Origin: Candidatus Poribacteria bacterium | GTDB taxonomy: Bacteria; Poribacteria; WGA-4E; WGA-3G | Assembly (NCBI GenBank): GCA_022825665.1 | Contig: JAJDWI010000029.1 | Coordinates: 1 to 37,123 of the forward strand | Reading direction: 5' to 3' | DNA length: 37,123 bases | Shown: positions 18,456-37,123 of the stretch, piece by piece | Numbering within the stretch: position 1 is the first letter of the stretch | How the letters are laid out: each line of letters opens with the position of its first letter | Notes under the pieces: generated by a model | Database searches by the model: none | The model's input: only the letters and a program-made list of their open reading frames with translations | Told to the model about the DNA's origin: nothing | Translations under genes and position numbers: made by a program

Positions 18456-19583
18456 ATGAATGAAAAAGTAAAAGATGAGTCATTGCAGACACCTGATCCT
18501 ACCGATGATGAAGCGATAAACGGATCGAATGAAATACCGGAAGTTAATTCCTCAATACAGCAGCAATTCAACGAATTACGTAGTACGTATCTTGATGAAA
18601 GATCAAGGTCAATTAATCGCTGGTTGTCCTTTACCAGTATAGTTCTTGTATTCTTTACACTACTTATTCCTTTGGTGACTGGTGTTGCAGGGTATTTAAT
18701 CTATATGAAGTTTGGCGATCTACAATCCCAAATGTTGGATCATGTCAAAGCAGCGGAACAACATGCTGCTGACGCTAAAACATCTGCTACTGAAACTACA
18801 AAATACCGTAAGGAAATTCAGCAGAACAATGCCAGAATACAAGCAATCGTTTCACAGTTAACCAGTAAAGATTTTAGCAATCCAAATAAGGTCGAAACAT
18901 TAAATACTTCGATACAAGACATTCTTAAGAATCCTGAATTATCACTGGAAGACAGAGCAATTATTGAAGCATATAAAATGCAACGAGACGGGAGTGTCGT
19001 AGATGCGATAGAGAAATGGAGATCTATCGCCAATACTGCCAAAGGTGTTGATAATGATTTAGTAGCACGGGCATTTTTCTCTATTGGTTTTCTACACTCC
19101 GAAGAGAATGAAACTGATCAAGCACTCTCTGCTTATGACGAGGCAATTAGACTGAATCCAGATTATGCACAAGCATACAACAGTCGAGGTATTGTAAAAA
19201 GCAAATTGGGTGAACCTACTAATGCAATTGTTGACTATACCGAAGCAATACGACTTAAACCGGATTTTACAGAGGCATACATCAATCGTGGTAATGCAAA
19301 ACGGTCGTTAGGTAAACATCGTGATGCAATTATTGATTATGATGAAGCGATCCGTCTTAATCCGAACTCTGCAGCAGCTTACACACATCGTGGTGTATCA
19401 GAAAACGAACTTGGTAACCATCAGGATGCTATTGCAGACCATGACAAGGCAATTAGTCTACAACCCAATTACGCTGATGCTTATATCAATCGGGGTACAG
19501 CTAAACGTGCTCTCGGACAACATGAAGAAGCTAGAGCAGATATGAATAAGGCAATTGACCTCGGAAAACAGCAAGAGGATTGA
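18456..19583 (+). CDS. Membrane-anchored TPR protein
   Basis: A 375-residue protein: an acidic N-terminal tail, a transmembrane helix at about 58-83, a coiled-coil-like region rich in Ala/Lys/Glu (about 88-160), then five TPRs of 34 residues (about 205-373) with the canonical 'A-x-x-x-R-G-x-x-x-x-x-L-G-x-x-x-x-A-I-x-D-(Y/H)-(D/T)-x-A-I-x-L' pattern. Such proteins scaffold complexes at the membrane. It lies 78 bases upstream of the HigA-like/TPR/nuclease-fold gene on the same strand, whose middle part also has TPR-like helices, so the two may act together. SD GGAAGGTGG is clear. Confidence 0.86.
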   Translation: MNEKVKDESLQTPDPTDDEAINGSNEIPEVNSSIQQQFNELRSTYLDERSRSINRWLSFTSIVLVFFTLLIPLVTGVAGYLIYMKFGDLQSQMLDHVKAAEQHAADAKTSATETTKYRKEIQQNNARIQAIVSQLTSKDFSNPNKVETLNTSIQDILKNPELSLEDRAIIEAYKMQRDGSVVDAIEKWRSIANTAKGVDNDLVARAFFSIGFLHSEENETDQALSAYDEAIRLNPDYAQAYNSRGIVKSKLGEPTNAIVDYTEAIRLKPDFTEAYINRGNAKRSLGKHRDAIIDYDEAIRLNPNSAAAYTHRGVSENELGNHQDAIADHDKAISLQPNYADAYINRGTAKRALGQHEEARADMNKAIDLGKQQED

Positions 19584-19661
19584 GATGCTTGAGAAGTAGT
19601 TGTTATTCATGAAGTGCTGACACATGCTGAATATAATGCATGGAATAAGAAAAGGTAATGT

Positions 19662-20759
19662 ATGATGTTAACTGAAATGCCGATACCTGAAAATTTGTTA
19701 TCAACGTTTTCACCATTAGTGCCACCTGTCTTAAGGGAACACAACAGCATGCCAGAACGGACATTGCCTGCGTCAACACAACCTTTTACCAAGGAATTTG
19801 TTTATGTTACACCTTATCCTGAAAGTGCTGCACAATGGCTTATCAATTTATTAGACATTTTCGCTGGCATAGTAAATCGGAATAAAGACCTTAGTAGTGT
19901 TGTAATAACCGAAACGGAATACAAACAACTTTCAGGAGTCCTTGATGATTTGATCTACAGTGTCGGTGAAGATGAAACCCATCCTTTGTCGGCAACTATG
20001 ACACTGGTCAGCCTACTTATTAAGATGTATGAGGATCAACACTTTCCAAAGTTAGATTCACTTTTTCCAGAACTTGCAGAAAGTGCTACCGTTGGAAACA
20101 CTTGGGAAATTAGTGATTCATCTACGACCCTATCAGGACAGATTGACACTGATTTTGTTATTGTTCTTTTTTCGATTGGTTGTCTACTTTGGCAGGGAGG
20201 TAAGTCAGAAAAAGCTATTTCTGCATACGACTTGGCAATTTCTATAAAATCTGATTATGCCAGTATTCACACAAGTCGGGGTGAAGCAAAGTCCAGTTTA
20301 ACTGACCTTAGGGGTGCAAAGACAGATTTACAAAACGCCTTGAAACTTGCAGAAAAGCAGGGAAAAGATGACTTCGGTATCGTTATTAAGGAACGGCTTA
20401 AGGAACTTGATGTAGTAGAAGCTGCTGTTGCTTATCTTTCTGACTCAAAATTCTCAAAGTATTCAATTATCAGAGAGTGTAGAATTCAAATAGGAACACT
20501 TTATAACAGAGTTGACTTTGCGCTTTGTGACGCAGAAGGAAACTTTATCACTATAGTAGAGTGCAAATTGGGTACAAGTTCCGATCATGGTGAATATAGC
20601 CATGAACCTTTGAAGAGTTATCTCTGTGCAACTGACACGGTATTTGGTATATTTGCTTCAAGCACAAATCCAGATTCATGGGTTTTCTATGAGAATTTGC
20701 GTCACAATCGGTTTCGGCAAATTACGCGTGCTGAATATGAAATGCAGGTACTTACGTAG
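19662..20759 (+). CDS. HigA-N-like + TPR + PD-(D/E)XK nuclease-fold protein
   Basis: A 365-residue composite protein. Residues about 78-136 (ITETEYKQLSGVLDDLI..., ...PLSATMTLVSLLIKMYEDQHFP) match the N-terminal part of HigA-type antitoxins but without the following HTH. Residues about 165-230 look TPR-like. Residues about 265-360 look like a restriction-endonuclease-like (HsdR N-terminal type) domain, with E272, D285 in 'VDFALCD' and E300-x-K302 in IVECK as the PD-(D/E)XK active-site pattern. It may act as a nuclease or nuclease-like sensor with the adjacent membrane TPR protein. Start ATG 19662 or 19665, with AAAAGG upstream. Fold calls are by eye. Confidence 0.65.
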   Translation: MMLTEMPIPENLLSTFSPLVPPVLREHNSMPERTLPASTQPFTKEFVYVTPYPESAAQWLINLLDIFAGIVNRNKDLSSVVITETEYKQLSGVLDDLIYSVGEDETHPLSATMTLVSLLIKMYEDQHFPKLDSLFPELAESATVGNTWEISDSSTTLSGQIDTDFVIVLFSIGCLLWQGGKSEKAISAYDLAISIKSDYASIHTSRGEAKSSLTDLRGAKTDLQNALKLAEKQGKDDFGIVIKERLKELDVVEAAVAYLSDSKFSKYSIIRECRIQIGTLYNRVDFALCDAEGNFITIVECKLGTSSDHGEYSHEPLKSYLCATDTVFGIFASSTNPDSWVFYENLRHNRFRQITRAEYEMQVLT

Positions 20760-35999: not shown

Positions 36000-36154
36000 C
36001 ATACTCCCCCAGCTAAAGCATGGGGGTTCTTTTGTTCTTACATTAGAGTTTTATCTCTAAATGACATTTCCTGCTTCGTCTAACACTGCTACAAAGTGTA
36101 GGCTAACATGTTATCCACAGGCGTTTATGCTCTCGGCATGCCCTGCCGCGAGGT
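35997..36154 (-). ncRNA. Predicted omega-RNA / right-end RNA of the tnpB element
   Basis: In IS200/IS605 elements the 3' part of tnpB and the right end are transcribed as the omega (reRNA) guide RNA for the TnpB nuclease. This stretch begins at the last tnpB codons and ends at the right-end hairpin. It is conserved, with only scattered changes, in the tnpB-less copy at 25388-25544, including the non-coding part after the tnpB stop, which fits a functional RNA. The guide would be the bases just outside the end (about 35978-35996, minus strand), inside the enolase-family gene. No direct evidence of expression. Confidence 0.55.
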
Positions 36155-37123
36155 TTCTAAGGTTTATTGCAGCGTTGACATCTCTATCTATTGAAACATC
36201 ACATTGACTACAATGATATGTTCTTTCTGAAAGTGTTAGATCACTTTTCTTATACCCACAACTACTACAAGTTTTACTACTCGCATAGAATTGGTCTGCT
36301 TCAATGAAAGGTATTCCCAAAGTCTCTGCTTTTGTTTTGAGTTTTGACAGAAACCCGCCTAACGCACTATCTGATAATGCTTTGGCTAACTTCCTATTCT
36401 TTAGCATGTTTGTTATCTTCAGAGTTTCCACTGCAATCATGCCTGCTTGTTTGATTATAGCTGTGGTGGCTTTATGGTGCGCATCGCTACGGATACACGC
36501 GATTTTATAGTGAACACGGGCGACTTTATGTTTCTGCTTGAACCAGTTTTTAGACTTCAACACCTTTCTATTCAAGGCACGCTGCGCCCGTTTCAATTTA
36601 CGCTCATAGTGTTTCAAGGGTCTCGGATTATCGTATTTTATGCCATTATCCAAGGTTGCCAACGCGTTTATACCAACATCAATACCAACAACAGGTGAGG
36701 TTGATTGTTTGTCAACCTGCTCAGGTGCGCCGATGTCAATAATGAGAGATACAAACCATCTATGAGCTGTTCTGGATATTGTCACTTCCACGATTTCACC
36801 TTCAAAACGTAACGATTCAAACAGGTTTACCCACCCTATTTTGGGCAACTTGATCTTCTTTCCTTTCACCTCTACAGTTTGATTATTTGTTGTGAAACTT
36901 TGTTTTGAACCACGATGCTTATACTTCGGAAAATGAGATCGTTTAGATACCCAATGAGATATAGATGATGCAAGATTACCAAATATGCTTTTATTAGCTA
37001 CAACTTGATCCTGAGATTTCGTCCAAGCATATTCTTTCTTTGCAACGTTGAAACGCTTGTTAAGTTCAGATGCTGAAAGAAAGTTGTCTTTAGCTAACTC
37101 TGACTTAAAATCGGCAAGGGCGT
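36111..37123 (-). CDS. tnpB: TnpB-type RNA-guided nuclease, 5' end off-window
   Basis: The minus-strand frame is open from the window edge to the stop at 36111, giving at least 337 residues; a GTG at 36869 is internal, not a start. The 5' part reads like a TnpB N-terminus ('ALADFKSELAKDNFL', 'FPKYKHRGSKQSFTTNNQ', then KLPKIGWV). The RuvC catalytic acids are present (from the internal GTG: D64 in GIDVG, E148 in IAVETL, D230 in DRDVNAA), as are the zinc finger CxxC pairs C201/C204 and C220/C223. It is therefore probably an active-type nuclease. Its transcript would carry the right-end RNA. Confidence 0.9.
   Translation of the reverse strand, partial: ALADFKSELAKDNFLSASELNKRFNVAKKEYAWTKSQDQVVANKSIFGNLASSISHWVSKRSHFPKYKHRGSKQSFTTNNQTVEVKGKKIKLPKIGWVNLFESLRFEGEIVEVTISRTAHRWFVSLIIDIGAPEQVDKQSTSPVVGIDVGINALATLDNGIKYDNPRPLKHYERKLKRAQRALNRKVLKSKNWFKQKHKVARVHYKIACIRSDAHHKATTAIIKQAGMIAVETLKITNMLKNRKLAKALSDSALGGFLSKLKTKAETLGIPFIEADQFYASSKTCSSCGYKKSDLTLSERTYHCSQCDVSIDRDVNAAINLRNLAAGHAESINACG

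Follow-up and report, generated by a model that had tools for sequence, protein, structure and literature searches.

HigB of Escherichia coli is a ribosome-dependent mRNA interferase that cleaves translated mRNA and is counteracted by HigA. The usual HigA antitoxin has an HTH with which it binds its own promoter. The phage defense system PD-Lambda-2 combines a HigB-like component with a fusion of HigA to an enzyme (PMC9519451). In the HigBAC module, a phage tail protein acts as the trigger by way of the loss of a chaperone contact (PMC11980606). Across sponge symbionts as a group, toxin–antitoxin and restriction genes are overrepresented (PMC5649159), which for the present locus serves as background only. 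A search of the open-access literature found no description of a HigA with a TPR or PD-(D/E)XK tail, a result that does not prove the absence of one.

The window, the whole analyzed stretch of 37,123 nucleotides, is one complete contig (C102) of the 4.5-Mb genome of a sponge symbiont, and its relatives are Candidatus Poribacteria. Two adjacent open reading frames, P0001 and P0002, had been singled out in an earlier note on this DNA, and both their coordinates and their strand are verified (Table 1). P0001 had been described there as a membrane-anchored TPR protein, in agreement with the single hydrophobic segment in its hydropathy profile and with its TPRs (PF00515, E 1.8e-40). An ORF scan of the window places P0002 among metabolic genes, an MFS transporter, an AlkB-like dioxygenase, and a glyoxalase, the last being the next gene downstream and on the opposite strand. 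Members of the DUF433 family are often met as antitoxins, and the window encodes a DUF433 protein (PF04255, 15284-15535) with no obvious toxin gene beside it. An IS605 OrfB/TnpB-like gene (PF01385, PF07282) lies at 36111-36869, near the contig end. A DUF6575 protein (PF20215, E 2.9e-29) is encoded at 2210-2818, and this domain is listed among those recovered in an anti-phage selection (PMC9519451).

Table 1. Features of the P0001–P0002 locus (window positions)
Feature	Position	Strand	Description
P0001	18456..19583	+	375 aa, one transmembrane segment (~residues 55-84), five C-terminal TPRs; upstream neighbor
Deletion junction (approximate)	19597..19599	.	~550 bp lost relative to L016; alignment with L016:5284-6100
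higB remnant	19599..19658	+	last 19 codons and stop (VVIHEVLTHAEYNAWNKKR-stop); 3 bp separate it from the P0002 start codon
P0002	19662..20759	+	365 aa, HigA-N/TPR/PD-(D/E)XK composite; probable orphaned HigA-type antitoxin
HigA-like toxin-binding domain (putative)	19812..20087	+	P0002 residues 51-142, helical, no HTH
TPR helices	20121..20438	+	P0002 residues 154-259
HSDR_N_2-like PD-(D/E)XK domain	20439..20753	+	P0002 residues 260-364; PF13588 matches, fold model
Predicted active site	20514..20567	+	D285 (20514-20516), E300 (20559-20561), K302 (20565-20567)

The distance of 78 bases between the two genes stands as first given, but the gap is not a plain spacer, since it carries the C-terminal codons of a higB gene. 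In one frame it reads ...EVVVIHEVLTHAEYNAWNKKR-stop, and the stretch VVIHEVLTHAEYNAWNKKR-stop represents the last 19 HigB codons, with 94.7% identity to residues 95-113 of the HigB encoded at the related locus L016. The P0002 orthologue of L016 is 92% identical as protein, and the same gap position is occupied there by an intact 113-aa ORF ending in VVIHEVLTHAEYNAWNRKR. This ORF belongs to HigB_toxin (PF09907, E 1.7e-21), matches E. coli HigB in the PDB (5ycl/5ifg/6kml, E ~1e-7), and is hit by the PADLOC profile PD-Lambda-2_A (E 1.1e-15). In a DNA alignment with L016, ~550 bp are missing from the window, whose sequence is a MAG assembly. The left side of the break ends in a shared CTTGAGAAG just past the P0001 stop codon, and on the right side the alignment resumes at about codon 95 of higB, such that roughly the first 94 codons are gone. 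Because C-terminal higB codons are still present in the window, the difference stems from a deletion on the window side rather than from an insertion in L016. A promoter-like TTGAAA-17-TATAAT (11/12) lies ~150 bp upstream of the L016 higB, inside the deleted stretch, although sites of such quality turn up about as often as chance predicts. The deletion thus took this likely promoter along with most of higB. The genome of the window harbors two further HigB genes (C17, C140), each with its own HigA-type gene. At L004:1042-3082, also in this genome, a HigB and a 108-aa HigA-N antitoxin are followed by a small ORF and then by a 378-aa ORF that by eye resembles a DNA adenine methylase.

A HigB toxin gene (PF09907) adjoining the three-domain protein upstream, of which the window retains 19 codons, is intact in seven relatives (L016, L017, L018, L019, L027, L032, and L033), where it ends 3-6 bp before the next gene. 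L021 has an intact higB upstream of an antitoxin version without the nuclease tail. Across 14 orthologous loci, higB is lost or broken in seven, the window included. It is reduced to its last 33 codons in G046 (a single-contig 5.3-Mb genome) and to YDAWNRKR in G063, survives in G042 as its first 50 residues, which run on into the reading frame of the antitoxin, and carries a frameshift and a stop in G038; no higB was found at the locus in G032 and G061. The breakpoints differ among G046, G063, G042, and G038, which shows that the losses were separate. The antitoxin gene itself is split in L036. L028:1369-2658 is a fused remnant in which the first 50 HigB residues are joined in frame to the antitoxin gene.

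The proposal that P0002 begins with a HigA-like region lacking an HTH holds, with homology reached by way of Poribacterial HigA proteins. The HigA-N domain aligns with Poribacterial HigA over 49 columns (hhalign, 96.8%, E 2.3e-10), and its HMM matches individual Poribacterial HigA proteins with E-values of 1e-8 to 1e-11. These proteins are 132-148 aa long, lie beside HigB, and still have the C-terminal region found in E. coli HigA. Poribacterial HigA in turn matches E. coli HigA over nearly its full length (E 4e-19), as well as PDB 5ifg_B (E 1.5e-14). Compared directly, the HigA-N profile and E. coli HigA show no significant similarity, and against the PDB the profile finds no HigA, its only matches being spurious ones to Kelch and BAR domains. 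Homology is therefore established through the chain of intermediates. A family profile scan detects no HTH in P0002, the C-terminus being filled by the TPR and nuclease domains. PADLOC returns nothing for P0002, and NCBIfam gives TPR-related or chance matches only. Searches against plasmids and phages yield matches to the TPRs alone in two plasmids and none in phages. P0002 is very probably an HTH-less HigA-type antitoxin whose toxin gene was deleted, and it is predicted to possess antitoxin activity.

The TPR-like helices that had been noticed in P0002 are recovered by PF13181 (E 5.5e-6). AlphaFold2 models the whole protein with a mean pLDDT of 81, with three well-predicted domains and a disordered stretch of 50 residues at the start, and the nuclease domain alone with a pLDDT of 89. 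Because a whole-protein Foldseek search is swamped by TPR structures, the domain-only model was used instead; it matches 3ijm (E 1.1e-4), TT1808, Cas4, HsdR 3h1t, DrdV, and lambda exonuclease. These are restriction-endonuclease-like folds, and the prediction bears out the nuclease fold proposed for the C-terminus. PF13588 (HSDR_N_2) is matched by 32 of 33 members of the family (best E 2.2e-9); the window copy scores 24.2 bits, 0.8 bit below the curated cut-off of 25, and several relatives score above it. D285 and E300-x-K302 lie where the motif is expected, with D present in 37, E in 35, and K in 34 of 37 copies. E272 had also been named as a motif residue, and it is indeed conserved (34/37) but ill placed, as it lies in a β-hairpin after the helix. 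E253, inside the helix spanning residues 236-259, is E in 28 of 37 copies and D in three more, and is the likelier motif-I glutamate. Nuclease activity is predicted for P0002, and catalysis may not be essential, to judge from some close relatives that have lost catalytic residues (K302M in L017, E300A in L029). The same nuclease domain occurs elsewhere in Poribacteria, either by itself or in fusion with OB-fold, HHH, VWA, or DprA domains, and these settings suggest that it works on DNA. At L003:736-1995, a naturally dead copy is joined to an OB-fold protein, its E and K being replaced by K and Y. L090:1461-5461 encodes a type ISP restriction–modification enzyme (PF18135) with a HigA-N/TPR gene downstream.

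The antitoxin partners of HigB vary in architecture. Among 108 distinct HigB ORFs, a sample drawn from loci retrieved by following search lists rather than a census, the next gene encodes HigA-N plus TPR in 40 cases, HigA-N plus TPR plus nuclease in eight, and HigA-N without TPR in 41 (25 longer than 110 aa and 16 shorter). The remaining 19 have no recognized HigA-N partner, a class that includes HigA-like proteins of 124-127 aa missed by the profile and loci at which nothing but short ORFs had been selected. A tree of the HigB proteins from 86 pairs, which rests on few columns and has a number of open forks, requires 6 changes of antitoxin architecture as compared to 40 in shuffles. All TPR-bearing partners fall into one group (47 of 86 pairs, support 94/96), within which the nuclease-tailed partners cluster as a nested clade (99/95) that includes a single loss, in L021. 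The tree thus favors a single gain of the nuclease tail inside the group of TPR-type antitoxins and suggests the order HTH, HTH-less, TPR, and TPR plus nuclease. L115, L118, L120, and L121 combine HigB with a 75-aa antitoxin consisting of HigA-N only, which leaves no room for a DNA-binding domain. At L041, L045, L051, L084, and L089, HigA-N/TPR proteins occur without HigB; the gene for a TPR protein (405-796 aa or longer) lies 19-22 bp ahead of theirs, an arrangement that is possibly a HigB-free relative of the system.

The pairing put forward in the earlier note would make P0001 and P0002 a two-gene defense unit in which a membrane TPR sensor activates a cytosolic TPR-nuclease. The two genes are adjacent in the window, on one strand and 78 bp apart, and both products carry TPRs. 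Moreover, a related membrane TPR protein directly precedes a stand-alone HSDR_N_2-like protein of ~170-183 aa at three loci (L020:4476-6375, L022:3951-5856, and L059:101-1962), a recurring two-gene unit that is closer to that idea than the window pair. However, the short gap is a product of the higB deletion, and P0001 looks like the direct partner of P0002 because the gene between them is almost wholly gone. When the recurrence of the pair was checked, P0001 stood beside a higB or P0002-type gene in only four of the 24 genomes with a strong orthologue, namely the window, G040, G038, and G041. All four are of the window's own genus, and an intact or broken higB separates the two orthologues in the latter three. 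The other 20 have neither gene within 1.5 kb of P0001, while in G043 and G046 the P0001 and P0002 orthologues share a contig but lie several kb apart. Directly upstream of the P0002 orthologue in L017, L018, L027, and L032 is higB, not P0001. The expected defense-island setting is likewise missing among the window neighbors, and P0002 has no PADLOC match. A two-gene defense unit is therefore very improbable, and the membrane TPR protein plus nuclease was rejected as a functional unit on the adjacency counts and the higB remnant. P0001 is a separable neighbor at an old locus rather than a conserved partner; the conserved partner of P0002, judged by gene order in the relatives, is the HigB toxin missing from the window. 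A defense role is possible by analogy with HigB-type systems only.

The present state of P0002 is a separate matter. Half of its orthologues persist although no usable higB accompanies them, a pattern compatible with decay and also with a role independent of the toxin. P0002 may now be a stand-alone nuclease/TPR protein with HigA-N as a leftover, its function after the loss of higB being independent of the toxin. D, E, and K are mostly retained in the seven of 14 orthologous loci without a usable higB, the nuclease domain is found on its own as well as in the fusions described above, and overall dN/dS is low (dN 0.038 and dS 0.207 for P0002 of the window versus L016). In contrast, among the three domains dN is lowest in HigA-N (0.019), which remains associated with HigB at the other seven loci, and the catalytic losses in L017 and L029 also speak against a nuclease retained for its own sake. 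This reading is fairly unlikely. Decay of the orphan into a functionless remnant of a dying toxin–antitoxin locus is unlikely as well, and slightly more so. Toxin and promoter are gone from the window, higB was lost separately with different breakpoints in G046, G063, G042, and G038, the antitoxin gene is split in L036, and 13 amino acid changes are assignable to the window branch as compared to 9 on that of L016. However, the reading frame and active site are intact, and dN/dS is ~0.18 as the mean of both branches. The branch counts and dN/dS fit relaxed selection or its absence alike and neither show nor exclude it.

The window locus is best read as belonging to a new HigBA variant and as having decayed; in this variant, the HTH would have been replaced by TPRs and then by TPRs plus a nuclease domain. 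In the intact operon, the HigA-N domain would bind and silence HigB. The TPR array, in place of the HTH, would most likely sense or scaffold protein partners and so decide the release of HigB. The C-terminal PD-(D/E)XK domain would be a later addition acting on nucleic acid, whether by serving as an additional effector or by taking over the contact with DNA after HTH loss. These roles of the TPR and nuclease domains in regulation and effect are drawn by analogy and are tentative, falling somewhat short of probable. In the window, the orphan is probably transcribed by read-through from P0001 upstream and may act through its nuclease domain, neutralize related HigB toxins, or be starting to decay. 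A further proposal, distinctly unlikely, is that the Poribacterial HigBA lineage, in its branch with a catalytic nuclease, is a two-effector abortive defense. Binding of a stress or phage protein to the TPRs would free HigB to arrest translation, with the nuclease attacking nucleic acid at the same time, and some genomes would later have discarded the toxin, leaving the antitoxin-nuclease to work alone.

If the lineage is true, with the HTH gone, TPRs in its stead, a nuclease added, and the HigB tree tracking these changes, it shows an antitoxin turning into a sensor/effector. It also supplies testable toxin–antitoxin pairs, such as the L016 HigB and its antitoxin, and it cautions that a neat two-gene "pair" may be the scar of a deleted toxin.

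Compared with known systems, P0002 shares fold, motif, and profile match with the HSDR_N_2 (PF13588) PD-(D/E)XK nucleases. Its domain is, however, not joined to a type I restriction helicase, as the 365-aa protein has no helicase domain, and no HsdM or HsdS is found among the scanned neighbors. HigBAC likewise involves a HigB toxin whose release may depend on an infection-sensing helper. There the helper is a separate SecB-like protein, whereas here the antitoxin itself carries the TPRs, and no SecB family member occurs among the scanned neighboring ORFs of the window. In PD-Lambda-2, too, a HigB-like first component precedes a HigA-like protein that bears an additional enzyme domain at its C-terminus. 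In that system, the second protein carries an HTH and a peptidase, and defense requires a third gene (PMC9519451); in contrast, P0002 has neither HTH nor peptidase, and no third gene was found. Relative to HigBA of E. coli K-12 (PDB 5ifg, 6kml), P0002 lacks the HTH and ends in TPRs and a PD-(D/E)XK domain, and the window toxin is deleted, yet the two have in common the toxin-first order, the HigB family (PF09907), and the N-terminus of a HigA-type antitoxin.
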